From assembly GCA_017569285.1 (NCBI GenBank), contig CP069419.1, positions 2,542,001-2,606,000 on the forward strand: 64,000 nucleotides of DNA. Reading direction: 5' to 3'. The notes beneath the pieces are model-generated. The model was not told the origin of the DNA, ran no database searches, and saw nothing but the letters and a program-made list of their open reading frames with translations. This DNA comes from Clostridiales bacterium. Lineage in GTDB: Bacteria > Bacillota > Clostridia > Christensenellales > Aristaeellaceae. This document shows positions 11,619-51,899 of the stretch, piece by piece. The position numbers were made by a program, and so were the translations under genes. How positions within the stretch are numbered: the first letter of the stretch is position 1; every line of letters starts with the position of its first letter.

Positions 11619-11645
11619 ATTGATGTTTCCTCCGTTGATATCCTT

Positions 11646-43337: not shown

Positions 43338-43390
43338 CAGGGATAACAGAACGGGAGAAAGATCATTTGGAAAGTCGGGAGCTTGTACAG

Positions 43391-44473
43391 ATGAACGAAC
43401 AGGAGAACCGGAACCGGAAAATCATTGACGCGGTCATCCGGAAGGAACAGGCGGTTTGTCCGGGATCTGTGGCACTGATCGGAATCTACGGATCCTTTCA
43501 GACGGGAGATGTTCATCCGCTGTCAGACCTGGACCTGCTGATCCTGATCAACGATGACCGCGGATGGCAGCTGGGAAAGGCTTTTATCCAGGAAGACCTA
43601 GGCGTGGGGCATGATATCTACTGCACGAGCTGGGAAAGCCTGCGGCAGGACGCCGAATATGAACACCCCCATATCTCCAAGCTGATGGATTCGCAAATCG
43701 TGTACTGCGCGGATGAAAAGTACAGAGAAGAACTGGAAACGCTCCGGGAACAGGTGCGGAGGAAACTGGCGGAACCGTTCGGGGAAGAGGATTACCGGAA
43801 GGCGGAAAAGGAACTGAAAGAGGCGCGGTGCTGTTTCGCGGATGCTATGACCGCAGAAGAGCTGAATGATGTCCGCCGGAGCGTGGGCGGTGCAGTCTAC
43901 TTTGCGGAAAACGCCCTTGCAATGCTGAACAAAACCTATTTCCGCAAAGGCGTCAGCCGGCGTTATGAAGAATTGGACGCCATGGCGAGAAAACCCGATA
44001 ATCTTTGCGGAATGATTGAAAACGTGCTGGCGGCATCAGGCACGAATGACCTGAAGGAACAGCTGACGCAGCTGATGAGGGGACTTGATTCCTGCTTCCG
44101 CCAGGTAAAGCAGCAGCTGCCGCGGGAAAGAAAGCCCGCCGGTGCGGATACGCTGTCCGGAACCTATGAGGAAATGTTCTCCAACTGGCACGGGAAAATG
44201 GTGCAGGCAGCGGAAAAGGGTGACCGGCACCTGGCGTTTATGAGCCTGGAAAGCCTGAATGAGATGCTGAATGATATCAGCAGCGAGGTGGATATCGGGA
44301 CGTACGATGTCCTTTCCGCATATGATCCCGGGGATCTTCGGAAGACAGCGGAAGGGTTTGAAAAAAACCTGAAGGATTATCTGCAGGAATATGACAGAGC
44401 GGGAATAAAGGCAAACTGTTTCCCCGGTATTGATGCCTTTATTGCCTCCTACCTGGAATCACGGGAAACCTGA
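43391..44473 (+). CDS. Nucleotidyltransferase-domain protein
   Basis: 360 residues. The Pol beta-type motif is GIYGSFQTGDVHPLSDLDLLIL (GS...DxD, about residues 30-50), as in antibiotic nucleotidyltransferases and minimal NTases. The long helical remainder (about 100-360) resembles the KNTase C-terminal partner. ATG at 43391 has GGGAG 9 nt upstream; the frame is open back to 43334 but only from a TTG. The nucleotide acceptor is unknown. Confidence 0.8.
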   Translation: MNEQENRNRKIIDAVIRKEQAVCPGSVALIGIYGSFQTGDVHPLSDLDLLILINDDRGWQLGKAFIQEDLGVGHDIYCTSWESLRQDAEYEHPHISKLMDSQIVYCADEKYREELETLREQVRRKLAEPFGEEDYRKAEKELKEARCCFADAMTAEELNDVRRSVGGAVYFAENALAMLNKTYFRKGVSRRYEELDAMARKPDNLCGMIENVLAASGTNDLKEQLTQLMRGLDSCFRQVKQQLPRERKPAGADTLSGTYEEMFSNWHGKMVQAAEKGDRHLAFMSLESLNEMLNDISSEVDIGTYDVLSAYDPGDLRKTAEGFEKNLKDYLQEYDRAGIKANCFPGIDAFIASYLESRET

Positions 44474-44738
44474 TGTACCGGGACCTTTTGAACGTCATCA
44501 CTGAATGAGTATGATTCTCCGGAGAAGCTATCGTAAGCCAAAGGCATACAGAATAATATGAGGTCATACAGATTATGATATGCAGATAATTCAGAGCATT
44601 GATTCTGGAGACAAAAAATCCGCAAATGAAAATCTTTAGAAATACAATGAATTATCCAGAAATTCTCAGGAAAACAGACTAATAGGGACAAAAAGCATAC
44701 AGTCGCCGGATAACGGAGTAAATCGGCCAATCTTAAGT

Positions 44739-44766
44739 TTGACTTTCTTTGATCTTTGAATATAAT
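44739..44766 (+). promoter_or_regulatory. Promoter of the hsp20 gene
   Basis: TTGACT (44739-44744), 16-nt spacer, TATAAT (44761-44766). No CIRCE inverted repeat (HrcA site) is seen. The 260 nt before it (from 44474) are AT-rich and hold no gene. Confidence 0.8.
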
Positions 44767-44772
44767 ATAATC

Positions 44773-44895
44773 AGCGTTCGGAAGAGCGGGGTGGCCGGAG
44801 ACCACAAAGTGCACGACCTGCATAAAGGCCAGATTGCGACCCGGCATGACGGGTGAGAAGCCCGGCGATGAAGGCCATGAATGGAGGTTGTTATT
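44773..44895 (+). promoter_or_regulatory. Structured 5' leader of hsp20, possible RNA thermometer
   Basis: The 120-nt leader contains several short hairpins (GTGG/CCAC, TGCA/TGCA, ACCCG/CGGGT). CGACCT near 44812 can pair with AGGTTG of the ribosome site GGAGGTTG before the hsp20 ATG (six pairs with one G-U). Small heat-shock genes are often under RNA thermometers that mask this site, so heat-released translation is a hypothesis here. Confidence 0.4.
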
Positions 44896-45357
44896 ATGAG
44901 TACTTATCTTCCCAGCGTATTCGGTGAGAACCTGATGGATGTCTTTGATGACTTTGACCGGAACTTCTTCCGTGGATTAACCCGTCCTGAGCATGTTCTT
45001 TACGGCAGAAATGCACAGCACATGATGAAGACGGATGTAAAGGAAACGGATGAAGGATACGAAGTCGATGTGGATCTGCCCGGATTCAAGAAAGAAGAAA
45101 TCAAGCTGAATCTGGAAAATGGTTATCTGACCATTGCGACAGAGAAAGCACTGGAAAAGAAGCAGGAGAACAAGAAAGGTAAAGTCCTGCGCCAGGAGCG
45201 GTACTCCGGTACAATGCAGCGCAGCTTCTATGTCGGTGACAGTGTGACCGAGGAAGACATCAAGGCGAAGTATGAAAACGGTGTGCTGAGTCTGACGATT
45301 CCGAAGAAGGAACAGCAGAAGGTTAGTGAGAAGAAACAGATCCTGATCGAAGGTTAA
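44896..45357 (+). CDS. Small heat shock protein, Hsp20/alpha-crystallin family
   Basis: 153 residues. The alpha-crystallin domain (about 45-140) runs from KTDVKETDEGYEVDVDLPGF through GYLTIATEKA to YENGVLSLTIPKKE, followed by the IxI-like tail KQILIEG. It is an ATP-independent holdase. ATG at 44896 is chosen because GGAGG lies 8 nt upstream; the ATG at 44881 precedes that site. Codon choice is clearly more AT-rich than in genes left of 41.7 kb. FtsH follows after a terminator. Confidence 0.95.
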   Translation: MSTYLPSVFGENLMDVFDDFDRNFFRGLTRPEHVLYGRNAQHMMKTDVKETDEGYEVDVDLPGFKKEEIKLNLENGYLTIATEKALEKKQENKKGKVLRQERYSGTMQRSFYVGDSVTEEDIKAKYENGVLSLTIPKKEQQKVSEKKQILIEG

Positions 45358-45394
45358 CTGACATACCTGAGGATCGGTCCATGTAAACCAAATC

Positions 45395-45450
45395 AGAGGA
45401 CTCCGGCTCAATAGTGAGTCGGAGTCCTCTGCCTTTTCTTCAGTTTTTTT
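45395..45450 (+). terminator. Intrinsic terminator between hsp20 and ftsH
   Basis: An 11-bp stem AGAGGACTCCG/CGGAGTCCTCT with an inner CTCA/TGAG extension, followed by T-rich sequence including a run of seven T. Confidence 0.85.
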
Positions 45451-45523
45451 CCTGTTGTTCTTCCGGTTTTCACTTGCCCTTCATGTTCAGGGTATAAGAT
45501 ACCGTTTAGAAGGAGATGGTCTT

Positions 45524-47356
45524 ATGATCAAGGATTCCGATCAGAACAAAAAGCCGCTCATTTTCTATATGGCTGTTGCAGTCATCGTGATTATGCTGCT
45601 GAATGCGTTCGTTTTTCCGATGCTGTTGCAGCGTCAGGTTCAGGAAGTCGGTTACAGCGATTTTCTGAAAATGGTGGATTCAAAACAGGTATCAGAAGTA
45701 TCCATGGATGAAAACGGAGAGCAATTGATCTTTATTGCCAAAAGCAAAGACGGACAGGATGGCATCTATAAGACAGCGGTTTTCCCGGATAACAGTCTGC
45801 GCCAACGGCTGGAGGATGCCGGTGTTTCCTTTTCCGCACAAATCCCAACTCAGAACAATCCGCTGATCAGTTTTTTGATCAGCTGGGTAATCCCGATCGC
45901 GCTGTTCTGGGCATTGGGACGGATATTATCAAAGCGGATGATGGGCGGGATGAATGCGCTGAGCTTCGGCAAATCCGGTGCGAAGATTGTTGCTTCAGAA
46001 TCAACGGGTGTAACTTTCGAAGATGTAGCCGGTGAGGAAGAAGCCAAGGAAGCACTGAAAGAGATTGTTGATTTTCTGGAACACCCGGGTAAATATGCCT
46101 CCATTGGCGCCAAACTGCCTAAAGGCGCGCTGCTTGTCGGACCTCCCGGAACAGGTAAAACTTTGCTGGCGAAAGCTGTTGCCGGTGAGGCCAAGGTTCC
46201 TTTCTTTTCCATTTCCGGCAGCGAATTTGTAGAGATGTTTGTCGGTATGGGTGCAGCAAAAGTCAGGGACCTGTTCAAACAGGCGAACGAAAAGGCGCCC
46301 TGTATCGTTTTTATTGATGAAATTGATACAATCGGCAAAAAAAGAGATACCGGAGCCGGCATCGGCGGCAATGACGAACGTGAACAGACCCTGAATCAGC
46401 TGCTGACAGAAATGGACGGCTTTGACGGGAAAAAGGGTGTGGTCATTCTGGCAGCAACCAACCGGCCTGAATCTCTGGATCCTGCACTTCTGCGCCCGGG
46501 CCGTTTTGACAGAAGGATTCCGGTTGAACTGCCGGATGTCGGCGGCCGTGAAGCAATTCTGCGTGTGCACAGCAAGGGGATCAGAATGGCCGATAACATT
46601 GACCTGAAAGCCGTCGCCAGGGCAACAAGCGGTGCAAGCGGTGCGGAACTGGCCAATATCATTAATGAGGCAGCTCTGCGCGCAGTACGGCTGGGCCGCG
46701 ATACTGTTACACAGGATGACCTGATGGAAAGTGTGGAAACGGTTATTGCCGGTTATCAGCGTAAAAATGCAGTTATGTCTGAGAGTGAAAAGAAAATAGT
46801 TTCCTATCACGAAATCGGTCACGCACTGGTGGCAGCTCTGCAGACCAATTCGGCACCTGTGACAAAGATCACGATTATCCCCAGGACATCCGGCGCTCTT
46901 GGATATACCATGCAGGTGGATGAAGATGAGCATTATCTGATGTCACGTGAAGAACTGTATAATAAGATTGTTACCCTGACAGGCGGGCAGGCAGCTGAAC
47001 AACTGGTTTTCCACTCCATCACCACGGGCGCGAGCAATGATATTGAAAAGGCAACCCGGCTGGCACGCGGGATGATTACCCGCTATGGCATGGGTGATTT
47101 CGGCATGGTGGCACTGGAAACACTGAACAGTCAGTATCTGGGTCAGGATACCTCCCTGGCATGCAGTCCTGCTTTTGCGGAAAAGATTGATGAACAGGTA
47201 GTCGCATTGGTAGAAGAAGCCCGGAAGAAAGCAGACAGTATTCTGCGGGAACACGAAGATAAACTCCATGAACTGGCAGCATACCTTCTAAACAAAGAAA
47301 CCATTACCGGTGAAGAGTTTATGAGCATCCTAAATGCTGATGATCAAAAATCATAA
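45524..47356 (+). CDS. ftsH: ATP-dependent zinc metalloprotease FtsH
   Basis: 610 residues anchored by two N-terminal helices (about 12-35 and 112-132) around a small external domain. AAA+ module: Walker A GPPGTGKT (206-213), Walker [12 protein letters not shown] region [18 protein letters not shown]. Peptidase: HEIGH zinc site His429/Glu430/His433. It degrades membrane and regulatory proteins. ATG at 45524 with GAAGGAG upstream was chosen. It is somewhat short at the C-terminus. The hsp20-ftsH pair is AT-richer than the flanks and is probably an additional stress-linked copy rather than the housekeeping one (inference). Confidence 0.95.
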
Positions 47357-47703
47357 ACAGATCGACGGAACTGAACGCTATTGATGAAGGGCAGCTGAAA
47401 AGGCTGGCAGAGGTTGAGCAGGCACGGAAAGAGCAGGAAAAGCTGAATCAGAACAGGGATGACGATAAAGCCGGAACCATTGTGGCAATTTAATAAGGAA
47501 ACGATCGGCGCTTCATGCCTCACAGGAGGTGGAAGCACCGGTTTTTCTGTTTTGGGCTGGAACGCTGATTTCTTAGGCGTTAGGGGTTTGTCTCTGTGGA
47601 AAAAACTGCTCGGATATGGTAAAATTCTGGAACGATGGCAGGCAACTGTCATCGTAGAATAGATGGGAAAAGGAATGTGCCATGAAGAAGAGGTGCATGC
47701 GCA
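47357..47703. other. Gene-free stretch with a degraded coding remnant
   Basis: From 47365 to 47491 one frame reads as a charged, helical peptide (LKRLAEVEQARKEQEKLNQN, ending AI before TAA) with no start codon or ribosome site; it looks like the broken C-terminus of a lost gene. The rest shows no coding signal. This supports a rearranged island. Confidence 0.4.
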
Positions 47704-48039
47704 ATGCCTCGCCAGGATGTTTTTGAAATGCCGTTTGAAAAGGTTTATCAGTGCCTTGTCCAGAAGGCTGAACGGAAAGGCCGGACACAGGAAGAAGTGG
47801 ATCAGGTTATCAAATGGCTAACCGGGTATGTCAGCATGGATAATCTGGAGGGCCTGACCTACGGACAGTTTTTATCCCTGGCCCCTATGTGGAATCCGCG
47901 ATCTGAACTGATCACCGGCTCCATCTGCGGGGTTAAGGTTGAGGAAATTGATGATCCTATGGCAAAGAAGATGCGGCAGCTGGATAAACTGATCGATGAA
48001 CTGGCGACAGGAAAACCGATGGAGAAGGTGCTGAGATGA
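47704..48039 (+). CDS. DUF2200 family protein
   Basis: 111 residues. The sequence KVYQCLVQKAERKGRTQEEVDQVIKWLTGY matches the DUF2200 family, small soluble proteins of unknown function. The stop overlaps the next gene's start by 4 nt (ATGA), so the pair is co-translated. Confidence 0.85.
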   Translation: MPRQDVFEMPFEKVYQCLVQKAERKGRTQEEVDQVIKWLTGYVSMDNLEGLTYGQFLSLAPMWNPRSELITGSICGVKVEEIDDPMAKKMRQLDKLIDELATGKPMEKVLR

Positions 48040-48371
48040 CGATTGATGAATATATAGCTGCACAACCGGAAAAGCTCCAGCCACTTCTTATATCAGTACG
48101 GGAAACCATTTGTACTGTACTTCCTGATGCCGAAGAGCGGATCAGCTATAAAATGCCAACGTTCTGGAAGCGGCACAATCTGATCCACTTTGCAGCCATG
48201 AAGAATCACCTGGGGATTTATCCGGGGGATGGCGGCGTGAATGCGTTCAAAGACGAAATTGAGGAACGTGGTCTGAAATATAGCAAAGGAGCAATCCAAT
48301 TTCCGTATGAGAAGGTCGATCTGGAATTGATCGGACGAATTGCCGAGTGGTGCGGGATGAATAATCGATGA
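48036..48371 (+). CDS. DUF1801/YdhG-like small protein (frataxin-like fold)
   Basis: 111 residues. TIDEYIAAQPEKLQPLLISVRETI and AEERISYKMPTFW are typical of the DUF1801 (YdhG/YjbR-related) group, proposed iron chaperones with a frataxin-like fold. The C-terminal KGAIQFPYEKVDLELIGRI agrees. It is coupled to the DUF2200 gene. Function is not shown by the sequence. Confidence 0.85.
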   Translation: MTIDEYIAAQPEKLQPLLISVRETICTVLPDAEERISYKMPTFWKRHNLIHFAAMKNHLGIYPGDGGVNAFKDEIEERGLKYSKGAIQFPYEKVDLELIGRIAEWCGMNNR

Positions 48372-48426
48372 TCGTATGGTAAACTTTCAAAGGCGGTTTT
48401 ACTCCGCCGATGACCGTTGAATCTTG

Positions 48427-48605
48427 CACGGTAGTAGAACCTCTGAATATCTACTACCATTTGACTACCATCCATTGCCGCGATTTGCCGGGTTCGCCCG
48501 GTTTTCCCGCAGGAATGTACGATTTCCCCGGTGCGCAAATCGCGGCAAAACGTCGCCTTAGGAGGCTTTACTGACCAATGACGAAGATCTTATTTATCTG
48601 CCATG
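48427..48605 (+). repeat. Left copy of a long imperfect direct repeat (att-like)
   Basis: Blocks TAGTAGAA, CTACTAC, GATTTGCCG, CCCGCAGGAA, TGCGCAAATCGCGGCA, AGGAGGC and ATCTTATTTATCTGCCATGG occur in the same order as in 51253-51455. The repeat ends inside the coding start of a phosphatase gene fragment. Confidence 0.7.
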
Positions 48606-48619
48606 GCAACAGTGACTAA
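48578..48619 (+). pseudogene. Truncated 5' end of a low-molecular-weight protein phosphatase gene
   Basis: ATG plus 12 codons (MTKILFICHGNSD) then TAA. The ILFICHGN part is the start of the P-loop of LMW phosphatases and equals that of the intact gene at 51429. An AGGAGG site 12 nt upstream matches the same spacing in the intact copy. The reading frame is lost before the catalytic Arg. Confidence 0.75.
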
Positions 48620-48751
48620 GGGGTTGGCAGGACGCCCCTAAAACGCGGCAAAACGCTGCAAAACGCGGCAGGTAAAAAGGAAATTACTACTGTTTTACTA
48701 CTACTGGTGAAATTTTGCCGAAAATATGAAAATCAACGCTATATGAAAAAA

Positions 48752-48776
48752 CGCTGGCCTTTGAAAAACAAGGGTT
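48752..48776 (+). repeat. Short imperfect direct repeat, copy 1
   Basis: CGCTGGCCTTTGAAAAACAA followed by GGGTT; an imperfect match to 48955-48979. Each copy contains a CCTT/AAGG inverted core, as att cores of integrases often do. Confidence 0.5.
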
Positions 48777-48954
48777 CGGCGCTTTTTCAGTAGTAAATCA
48801 TATTATTGATCAAGCGAATATGTTCCGGCTTTATCGGCTTAGCAGATTGATCAGTGCCAGCCGGATAAGGTTTATAGTTGACTTTGTTCGGCAACAGAGT
48901 GATTACTAAAGTTACTATTTCTGTATAAAAACTATTGGGAAGGAAATGAAAAAG

Positions 48955-48979
48955 CGCTGACCTTGAAAACACAAGGATT
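48955..48979 (+). repeat. Short imperfect direct repeat, copy 2
   Basis: CGCTGACCTTGAAAACACAA followed by GGATT, the partner of the copy at 48752. Confidence 0.5.
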
Positions 48980-49220
48980 AAGTTCAAAAAAGCGGCACGT
49001 AGGAAAGATGAAAAATATCTCATTGTATTCTGTGATGTCAGGAGGAAGGACGTGGAAAAGTTTATCCATGCTATCGAGGAGAAGAATCAAGGATTCATGG
49101 CTCACTCCTTATGCCCTTATTATACCACATATCACCCTCTAAATGTTGATTTTATAGGCTTTTCAGCACTTTTATATGACAAAATCCGAGGCTTTTGCCT
49201 CGGACTTTGTCGACAGTCTG

Positions 49221-49256
49221 AAACGGCTTCCGGGGCGGAAGCCGTTTTCTTTGATT
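49221..49256 (+). terminator. Strong intrinsic terminator
   Basis: A perfect 12-bp stem AAACGGCTTCCG/CGGAAGCCGTTT with a GGG loop, followed by TCTTTGATTT. A second hairpin (CCGAGGC/GCCTCGG) lies 25 nt upstream. No intact gene precedes it, which points to a deleted gene. Confidence 0.85.
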
Positions 49257-49282
49257 TATGACGGAAAGTTGCTTTCTGATCC

Positions 49283-49311
49283 TTCTGATTTACGGTGAAT
49301 AATGGTATAAT
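49283..49311 (+). promoter_or_regulatory. Promoter of the YitT-type gene, extended -10
   Basis: TTCTGA (49283-49288), 17-nt spacer, perfect TATAAT (49306-49311) preceded by TGG, which may compensate for the weak -35. Confidence 0.6.
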
Positions 49312-49357
49312 GGTTTATCGTTGGAAACGGTTGTGTTTTGGAGGAAAGAGGAGTCGC

Positions 49358-50218
49358 ATGTCCAAAGAGCAGAAGGTTACCCTGAAGGAATGGCTGTATA
49401 TCACGATCGGTATCCTGATCATGACGGTGGGGATCTATTTCTTTAAATTCCCCAACCATTTTTCCACCGGCGGCGTGACGGGTATCGCCATTGTTCTCGG
49501 CCATTATATTCCGTCCATTACACCCGGCACACTTGTGACGATCATCAATATCGGGCTGCTGATTCTTGGCTTTGCGGTCTTTGGAAGATCCTTCGGGATC
49601 AGGACAGTCTACGCATCCCTGCTGATGTCCGGCACACTGCGGCTGCTTGAGGTTATTTGTCCCATGAGCGGCCCGATGACTTCACAGCCGCTGGTGGAAC
49701 TGTTTTTCGCGGTCGGACTTCCGGCGGTCGGCTCCGCCATCCTGTTTAATCTGGATGCATCCTCCGGCGGAACGGATATCATCGCAATGATCCTGAAAAA
49801 GCATACGGCACTGAACATCGGTGTCGCGCTGCTGTGCAGCGATATCATCATTACGGTATCCGCCTGTTTTGCCTTCGGTATGGAGACGGGCCTTTTCTCC
49901 GTTCTCGGACTGATCATCCAATCGCTGTTCATGGACCAGGTGATGGACAACCTGAAGACCAAGAAGTGTTTCCAGATCATCACCTCCAATCCTGAACCCA
50001 TCGAACAGTTTATTACCGCGGAGCTTCATCGCGGAGCGACCCGGCTGCACGGGGAAGGATCCTATACCCATGAAGGGAAGACTGTGCTGCTGGCAGTGGT
50101 ATCCCGGCATGAAGCGGTGCAGCTGCGGAATTATATCCACAAGCAGGATCCGGCAGCCTTTATGATCATTACCTCCAGTACGGAGATTATCGGAAAAGGA
50201 TTCAGGGGCGTAAATTAA
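49358..50218 (+). CDS. YitT family membrane protein
   Basis: 286 residues. Five to six helices (about 12-185) with GIYFFKFPNHFSTGGVTGIAIVLG and SSGGTDIIAMILKKHTALNIG are diagnostic for YitT/DUF161. The C-terminal 80 residues are the DUF2179 cytosolic domain (RGATRLHGEGSYTHEGKTVL). Function is unknown; a carrier role is suspected for the family. ATG at 49358 with GAGGAG upstream is used. It is intact inside the otherwise decayed island. Confidence 0.92.
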   Translation: MSKEQKVTLKEWLYITIGILIMTVGIYFFKFPNHFSTGGVTGIAIVLGHYIPSITPGTLVTIINIGLLILGFAVFGRSFGIRTVYASLLMSGTLRLLEVICPMSGPMTSQPLVELFFAVGLPAVGSAILFNLDASSGGTDIIAMILKKHTALNIGVALLCSDIIITVSACFAFGMETGLFSVLGLIIQSLFMDQVMDNLKTKKCFQIITSNPEPIEQFITAELHRGATRLHGEGSYTHEGKTVLLAVVSRHEAVQLRNYIHKQDPAAFMIITSSTEIIGKGFRGVN

Positions 50219-50378
50219 TAAAATGGTTTGCATCTGATCTGTGCTGCTCTTGATTATGACCTGAGAAAATCGGAAAACATATGTTGGAAATGCTAGCCAA
50301 GTTCAGGAATGAAGGGATCATAGAATGAATCATTTTATACTATGGGTATAATGACAAACACTTTGAGGTATCTTTCAT

Positions 50379-50582
50379 ATGCTCTGTTATGCTTTTCGAA
50401 TTCTACGACAGAAGAATTATGAGAAGATTGCCACAGAGGATTTCATGCATGTGGAAGATATGCTGGCAGCAATTCTTTCCCGTGGCATTGCCCAGCAGTT
50501 GAAGCAAGGTTTGTATCGGACTTATATTGAGCATAACGAACAGAGCAAAACGCTGCGGGGCAAATTGAATCGCTTGATCTGA
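50379..50582 (+). pseudogene. Fragment of an McrC-type restriction subunit gene
   Basis: About 67 residues (LCYAFRILRQKNYEKIATED, then a segment ending LKQGLYRTYIEHNEQSKTLR and GKL) match the interior of McrC-family proteins, the partner of the McrB GTPase in 5-methylcytosine restriction. There is no normal N-terminus (a TGA lies just upstream), and the frame stops where McrC should continue for some 250 residues. Another frame then reads NRPFVEIADSLDRIVYENFG to a stop at 50664, perhaps the end of a different lost gene. No mcrB is present. It is a relic of a defence system. Confidence 0.7.
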
Positions 50583-50688
50583 ATCGACCTTTTGTTGAGA
50601 TTGCTGACTCTCTGGATCGGATCGTATATGAGAACTTTGGCAATACTTTGAAGAGGATCGCATAGAAGTAAAAAGGCGGTGAAGCTGA

Positions 50689-51255
50689 GTGATACATCTG
50701 GATGCCAACCGTTTGATGGAAAGTCAGTTGGCAAGAAGCATGGGCTTGGACAAATATGCCGATATCATGGAAGCTGCCAGGAAGAACGATGTTTCTTCAG
50801 ATGCCTCATTCCAGCATGCATTCAATGCGTTTTACCGGGTAAGGCGAAACGCTGAATGGAGAAAGTGTTACTACAAGCTTTTTGAACGGGCGAAAAAGGA
50901 GAATTATTCCTTTGCAGATGTGATTGGCTGTCTGTACGTAGAAACGGGGAATATTGAGGCCTCCTTTTCCTCTAAGATGATTGCGACGATCGATCCGAAT
51001 AAACCGATCTGGGATCAGTACGTTTTGCAGAACCTGGGGCTGGAATTGAAGGGCAAGAATCCCCGGGAACGGGTTGAGAATGCCATTCTGATTTATGATC
51101 AGATAGAGATATGGTATAAAGACTATCTGTCCACGGAAGAGGCGCGGAAGAATATCGAGGAATTTGACAGATGGCTGCCATCATACAGTTGGATTCCGGA
51201 AATAAAGAAGATTGATTATCTACTTTGGAGCCGACGGGAAGAAGAATCCGAGTAG
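50689..51255 (+). CDS. Conserved hypothetical protein
   Basis: 188 residues, soluble and helical. The sequence (MGLDKYADIMEAAR, RVRRNAEWRKCYYKLFERAK, IEASFSSKMIATIDPNKP, IWDQYVLQNLGLELKG) looks like a conserved family found in many bacteria, but I cannot attach a function; a helix-hairpin-helix-like DNA-binding fold is conceivable. The start is GTG, with a weak GGCGGTGAAG site. It lies between the mcrC fragment and the right-hand direct repeat, so it may belong to the inserted element. Confidence 0.6.
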   Translation: MIHLDANRLMESQLARSMGLDKYADIMEAARKNDVSSDASFQHAFNAFYRVRRNAEWRKCYYKLFERAKKENYSFADVIGCLYVETGNIEASFSSKMIATIDPNKPIWDQYVLQNLGLELKGKNPRERVENAILIYDQIEIWYKDYLSTEEARKNIEEFDRWLPSYSWIPEIKKIDYLLWSRREEESE

Positions 51256-51455
51256 TAGAAAAATCCCGTTTTACTACTTTTCTACTACTTTTGGCGGCCT
51301 CGATTTGCCGCATTTTGCCGCGTTTTGCCGAGTGATGAATTTCATTTTGGAAAGTGCGGGACAGATTTGACCCGCAGGAAACTGCGCAAAACGCGGCATC
51401 CTGCGGCATAAGGGGGCATCTTGTTCAGGTGATCAGAATCTTATTTATCTGCCAC
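51253..51455 (+). repeat. Right copy of the long imperfect direct repeat (att-like)
   Basis: It carries the same ordered blocks as 48427-48605 (TAGTAGAA, TACTAC, GATTTGCCG, CCCGCAGGAA, TGCGCAAAACGCGGCA, AGGGGGC, ATCTTATTTATCTGCCACGG) and runs into the intact phosphatase gene. Extra GCCGCATTTTGCCGCG units lie within. Confidence 0.7.
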
Positions 51456-51899
51456 GGCAATATCTGCCGGAGCGCCGCCGCGGAGATGGTGCTGCGGCAG
51501 ATGATTGAGGAACGGCACCTTTCCGGGATCGCGGTATCATCCGCCGCGGCAACGCGGGAGGAGATCGGAAACGACGTGTATCCCCCGATGAAGAAGGCGC
51601 TGGCGGCGGCCGGATATGTGTGCCATCCGCACGCGGCGCGGCAGACCACGCGGGACGATTACCGGAAATACGACTACATCATCGGTATGGACGATGAGAA
51701 CATGTGGGATATGAAATACCTGTACGGCGGGGACCCGGACGGAAAGCTGTCCATGCTGCTGGACTGGGCCGGGATGCCGGGAAGGGAGATTGACGACCCG
51801 TGGTATACCCGGGATTTCACCGGGGTGTTGCGGCAGATTGAGGACGGATGCAGGGGGCTGCTGGACCGGATTGCGGAAACGGGGGAAAACAGGAAATGA
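51429..51899 (+). CDS. Low-molecular-weight protein-tyrosine phosphatase
   Basis: 156 residues. The P-loop CHGNICRS carries nucleophile Cys8 and Arg14. The general acid loop is DDPWYT with Asp123. Such enzymes dephosphorylate tyrosine or arginine residues. GTG at 51429 follows AGGGGG by 12 nt, a long spacing identical to that of the truncated copy at 48578; the frame is open upstream but only through repeat sequence. It overlaps the TPR gene by 4 nt and heads a three-gene operon. The 5' end lies inside the direct repeat, so its present upstream region may have been replaced by the insertion. Confidence 0.92.
   Translation: MIRILFICHGNICRSAAAEMVLRQMIEERHLSGIAVSSAAATREEIGNDVYPPMKKALAAAGYVCHPHAARQTTRDDYRKYDYIIGMDDENMWDMKYLYGGDPDGKLSMLLDWAGMPGREIDDPWYTRDFTGVLRQIEDGCRGLLDRIAETGENRK

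Follow-up and report, generated by a model that had tools for sequence, protein, structure and literature searches.

On sequence comparison, the 5′ end of a gene encoding a low-molecular-weight protein tyrosine phosphatase (LMW-PTP) appears to be a site-specific integration hotspot, and the insert at this gene in the window (the whole stretch of 64,000 nucleotides that was analysed) would be a second, CIME-like relic element in an array; we put the probability of this reading at about 0.9. On either side of the insertion, which lies in the 5′ coding end of LMW-PTP, stands one copy of a direct repeat composed of gene codons. The insert measures 2,851 bp between the two copies of this repeat, hereafter the cores, and its boundary falls at the core. 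The features of the locus are collected in Table 1.

The core repeat and the insert

The core, ATCTTATTTATCTGCCAyGGCAA, is a near-perfect direct repeat of 23 bp (22/23 identical between the copies). It covers the first LMW-PTP codons, encoding I-L-F-I-C-H-G-N, which we take to be the start of the catalytic C-x5-R loop (P-loop) of the enzyme. A 17-mer of the core occurs exactly twice in the window, where 0.09 matches are expected by chance even with 3 mismatches allowed, and it is found in two places only of the 3.27-Mb genome with up to 2 mismatches allowed. The preliminary description had reported long direct repeats duplicating the phosphatase 5′ end. Both copies were located where it had placed them and the repeat is real, but near-identity is confined to the 23-bp core, the arms upstream being diverged homologues that are about 68–70% alike over two segments of 59 and 73 nt. 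Each core is preceded on its 5′ side by these co-linear arms, which carry GTAGTA/TACTAC repeats, a ribosome site and a start codon; the window has 18 TACTAC/GTAGTA words, of which 9 cluster within about 440 bp at these repeats (binomial tail of about 1e-15, for regions picked after looking). The equal spacing of ribosome site and start described for the two copies can be read from the sequence: 12 nt separate AGGAGG (48560–48565) from ATG 48578 in the left copy, and AGGGGG (51411–51416) from GTG 51429 in the right copy. At 51303–51335 and 51383–51418, TTTGCCGC repeats phased at ∼10 bp face inverted copies before the ribosome site; these repeats and their inverted copies seem to co-vary between element types, and may correspond to accessory-protein sites or to an mRNA hairpin.

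ORF and Pfam analyses agree with the contents first listed for the insert (YitT, mcrC debris, a hypothetical gene and no integrase). An integrase remnant just outside the insert is to be added to that list. McrB- and McrC-like genes are present in the integrase-bearing locus of genome G062. The 188-aa ORF had no match in Pfam or PHROGs. The insert has attL and attR on its two sides, and by the same ORF and Pfam analyses recombinase and transfer genes are absent from it. As it has two att sites and no integrase, the most fitting reading is that of a stranded CIME-like relic, which would be movable only if a cognate integrase arrives. A search of the window's own genome found no intact cognate integrase, only the fragment at 47393–47493 and distant integrases: the genome has four PF00589 genes, the best with 28% identity to the integrase family found at right ends in relatives (see below).

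Table 1. Coordinates of the features at the LMW-PTP locus, in window positions
Feature	Position	Strand	Basis
Integrase C-terminal remnant of putative earlier element (..LKRLAEVEQARKEQEKLNQNRDDDKAGTIVAI, stop)	47393–47493	+	translation; 90–93% DNA identity to relatives
DUF2200 and DUF1801 genes, cargo at putative earlier element's right end	47704–48371	+	Pfam
Putative earlier element's right end ('b' arm): GTAGTA, CTACTACCATTTGACTACCAT, TTTGCC repeats, RBS, ATG 48578	48427–48586	+	
Decapitated phosphatase leader, 13 codons (MTKILFICHGNSD, stop)	48578–48619	+	sequence reading; relatives have comparable truncated leaders
Left core repeat (attL of insert)	48587–48609	+	sequence comparison
Insert left end ('a' type): CAGTGACTAAGGGG.., GCGGCAAAACGC repeats, TACTAC arms	48610–48908	+	
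YitT-family membrane protein, cargo	49361–50218	+	PF02588 and PF10035
McrC fragment, cargo debris	50379–50582	+	PF10117, 63/318 positions
188-aa ORF, cargo abutting right end	50689–51255	+	3′ part and right end recur in G023, G021
Insert right end ('a' arm): GAGTAGTAG, TTTTACTACTTTTCTACTACT, phased repeats, RBS, GTG 51429	51250–51437	+	
LMW-PTP, target gene	51429–51899	+	PF01451, E 1.9e-29
Right core repeat (attR), within phosphatase gene	51438–51460	+	sequence comparison

A target site that was probably already occupied

The preliminary description had proposed a comparison with genomes lacking the insert, and had held that related genomes with no empty-site version would indicate simple tandem duplication. 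Two relatives, G013 and G012, are insert-free. In G013, a match to window positions 47395–48609 (93%) passes directly into a match to 51438–51865; the joined stretch comprises the integrase tail, DUF2200, DUF1801, the arm, the core and then the phosphatase, and the two flanks have exactly the 23-bp core in common. The same arrangement is found in G012 from DUF2200 onward, and joining the two flanks of the window in a script reproduces it. Since the flanks are joined at one core in both genomes, the 2,851 bp represent a site-specific insertion and not a tandem duplication. G013 and G012 are other species and not sister strains, so that insertion in the window and loss in the relatives are not separable by dating.

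That the insert entered at the gene start, as had been suggested, thus stands as regards site-specific insertion, but the site was probably not virgin. The left repeat bears the 'b' arm (CTACTACCATTTGACTACCAT), which stands at the right ends of other elements in relatives, and the left repeat is for this reason read as the right end of an earlier element. The 'b' arm was found in 10/45 genomes of the genus (0 with a reversed-pattern control). At the DNA level the integrase remnant is 90–93% identical to the 3′ end of the integrase of G007, G012 and G013, and the DUF2200–DUF1801 pair stands in the same order ahead of the right end in G012, G013 and G024. These comparisons suggest that the locus is a small array made by repeated integration, in which the insert is the second element to land at a site already occupied by a different, earlier one. 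G012 and G013 have holin and tail genes close to their 'b' integrase, which identifies the elements of these genomes as prophages; in the window, DUF2200, DUF1801 and the 43334 ORF had no PHROGs match, and the phage nature of the earlier element is taken from these two relatives. No left boundary of the earlier element was found within the window.

Further left, an HSP20-FtsH module (44579–47385) is about 95% identical in G002, G001 and G023. Different integrase remnants or cargo adjoin it in each genome (in the window, the integrase C-terminal remnant), and it may move as a unit within arrays. The region of a 379-aa ORF (43378–44394) matches array segments of G021 and G034 at about 88% identity, and array-borne DNA therefore probably continues left of FtsH.

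Element ends and integrases in relatives and phages

The 'a' left end was found behind truncated cores in eleven other genomes of the genus with ≤3 mismatches (pattern in 12/45), and is about 89–98% identical over some 135–360 bp in G002, G005, G008, G009, G023 and G066. The 'a' right arm (GAGTAGTAG..TTTTACTACTTTTCTACTACT) is present in 22/45 genus genomes (control, 0), and in most copies 166 bp separate it from the core. Twenty-one right ends, from hosts and phages, aligned in one order: GTAGTA, TACTAC, TACTAC, TTTGCC repeats, GGCA repeats, ribosome site, start and core. In the locus L205 (G023:C1:546000–562000), a displaced 'a'-type element with HSP20-FtsH cargo lies far from the intact phosphatase of G023. 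This position, near 554 kb, was considered as a secondary integration site and set aside, as the empty-site search gave only occupied junctions; its right flank resembles a decayed phosphatase start.

Integrases of one family precede the right end, in most cases at close range, with both 'a' arms (G032, G062, G061) and 'b' arms (G012, G013, G010, G007, G024). The integrases of the relatives combine a PF02920 arm-binding domain and a PF00589 catalytic domain, i.e., the Tn916/Tn1549-type architecture, and match strongly the solved chains 6emy/6emz ('Int protein', presumably the Tn1549 Int) and 1b69 (Tn916 Int-N). Two further integrases, with other arms, occupy the same site in G011 and G021; a candidate relaxase in the G011 element had no Pfam match and was discarded. 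A same-strand integrase stands 149–352 bp upstream at 17 of the 66 LMW-PTP loci for which sufficient upstream sequence was available.

Seven IMG/VR contigs, drawn from relatives of the right-end integrase, carry a ribosome site, ATG and the phosphatase core 3′ of the integrase (L212, L213, L216, L223, L230, L235 and L236); after the core comes an early stop, and then non-phosphatase DNA. In L234 and in MT836428 (INPHARED), where the core also stands beside the integrase, the core leads into an intact phosphatase. The exact left-junction pattern had no match in IMG/VR. Complete INPHARED phages were examined as a source of attP and discarded: the nearest integrase relatives, from Monoglobales and Ruminococcus phages, have no core beside the integrase and probably use other sites. 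The renewed 5′ end postulated in the preliminary description is borne out by the seven contigs, which bear the same replacement ribosome site, start and first codons. In the window, the insert's right end likewise supplies a replacement start and first codons to LMW-PTP. Renewal is shown for the ribosome site, the start codon and the first codons; a consensus scan of the right end found no sigma-70-like promoter, so that transcription of the restored phosphatase, whose expression we infer, may come from upstream.

Alternatives, mechanism and known systems

Had the 5′ region of the phosphatase been duplicated in tandem, and had unrelated genes come to stand between the copies afterwards, there would also be two gene starts in the same direction, one of them truncated. 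This reading was rejected on the insert-free arrangement of G013 and G012, and we find it barely credible: identity ends at the right side of the core, where the left copy enters an element end that is present behind cores in 11 other genomes, the upstream arms of the left and right copies are of different element types, and phage contigs bear the gene start. It is also unlikely that the insert is a functional integrase-less cassette, moved regularly in trans by co-resident prophage integrases, and not a relic. Arm sites and core are indeed kept at its two ends, and several species (G002, G019, G018 and G036/G023) likewise have segments without an integrase between cores; against this, truncated integrases adjoin the right ends in G001 and G009, which suggests decay, cargo varies between copies and McrC is broken, and the genome has no intact cognate integrase. 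We are distinctly doubtful that the insert came by homologous recombination between the arrays of related strains, through their shared ends and not by an integrase at this copy. The HSP20-FtsH module, which recurs in varied contexts between the same kinds of ends, and the shuffled cargo would fit such exchange, but the insert ends precisely at the recombination core, and its two junctions bring together arms of different types, the outcome expected from integration at an occupied site.

For serial site-specific integration followed by loss of the integrase, we infer the following recombination chemistry and order of events. The attB would lie over the catalytic P-loop codons and be used by elements, prophages among them, that carry tyrosine integrases of the Tn916/Tn1549 type. 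The N-domain of these enzymes would bind GTAGTA/TACTAC arm sites at the two element ends, and the element core would recombine with the near-identical gene codons. At the left junction a decapitated leader would remain, closed by a stop a few codons on; the left copy was indeed described as ending after 13 codons, and its frame reads as given in Table 1. The right junction would replace the ribosome site, the start and the first codons, by which the phosphatase remains an open gene. A phage-type element (right end 48427–48609, its integrase now a remnant) would have come first, and the 'a'-type element would then have entered its core; any mobilisation of the latter today is likewise conjectural.

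The integrases resemble those of Tn916/Tn1549 in their PF02920 and PF00589 architecture and strong sequence match, and the GTAGTA-type arm repeats may resemble the Tn916 arm site; the integrases differ in that they occur at a single gene site across many species, with several carriers being prophages. Tyrosine-integrase elements, both genomic islands and prophages, are known in the dusA 5′ end (PMC4482086), and IMEVchUSA3 at dusA provides a promoter and N-terminus to the gene, a mechanism demonstrated experimentally (PMC8409611). The present elements share with these the tyrosine integrases, the inclusion of phages, a conserved protein gene as target, entered at its 5′ end, and a right junction that restores the start. 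However, dusA elements are found in Proteobacteria and those described here at the LMW-PTP P-loop in Clostridia, with a PF02920 and PF00589 integrase family, and here a start is supplied and no promoter was found by consensus scan. SXT, according to the passage of PMC8409611 that cites it, inserts in prfC; it similarly targets a gene 5′ end and brings a new N-terminus, but is large and conjugative, whereas transfer and integrase genes are absent from the present insert. Tandem islands that arise by successive insertion into the same gene, some of them lacking a recombinase, are described at Dehalococcoides ssrA (PMC3146451), as is, in the ICESt1 work as cited there, CIME accretion; the ssrA islands involve serine recombinases and a tmRNA gene, in contrast to the tyrosine integrases and protein gene found here. 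The kind of element is thus already known, from dusA/prfC 5′-end elements and accretion arrays, and no report of LMW-PTP as an integration target was found in the literature searched, which covered few subscription journals.

The catalytic codons of LMW-PTP, a widespread phosphatase, would thus be a hotspot at which both prophages and islands integrate, in one rumen genus at least, its reach across Clostridia being judged by integrase position. In uncultured gut bacteria, the site can guide the search for the ends of prophages and for defence cargo such as McrBC; it also offers a testable target for integrases of a Tn916-type family. Should the replaced 5′ end alter expression, lysogeny would be tied to the host phosphatase level; that lysogeny and serial integration re-set LMW-PTP expression, making the hotspot a mobile-element-controlled phosphatase switch in gut Clostridia, is a speculative and rather improbable extension.

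Two minor observations concern repeated cores elsewhere. The IMG/VR contig L216 has phosphatase cores at 11634 and 19245, about 7.6 kb apart, with a second, different integrase ahead of the second core, and may represent a tandem insertion outside the genus too. In G004, G010 and G007 (L033 reverse complement, 18901 and 19176; L044; L049), several decayed cores stand in series ahead of the phosphatase and look like fossils of older insertions.
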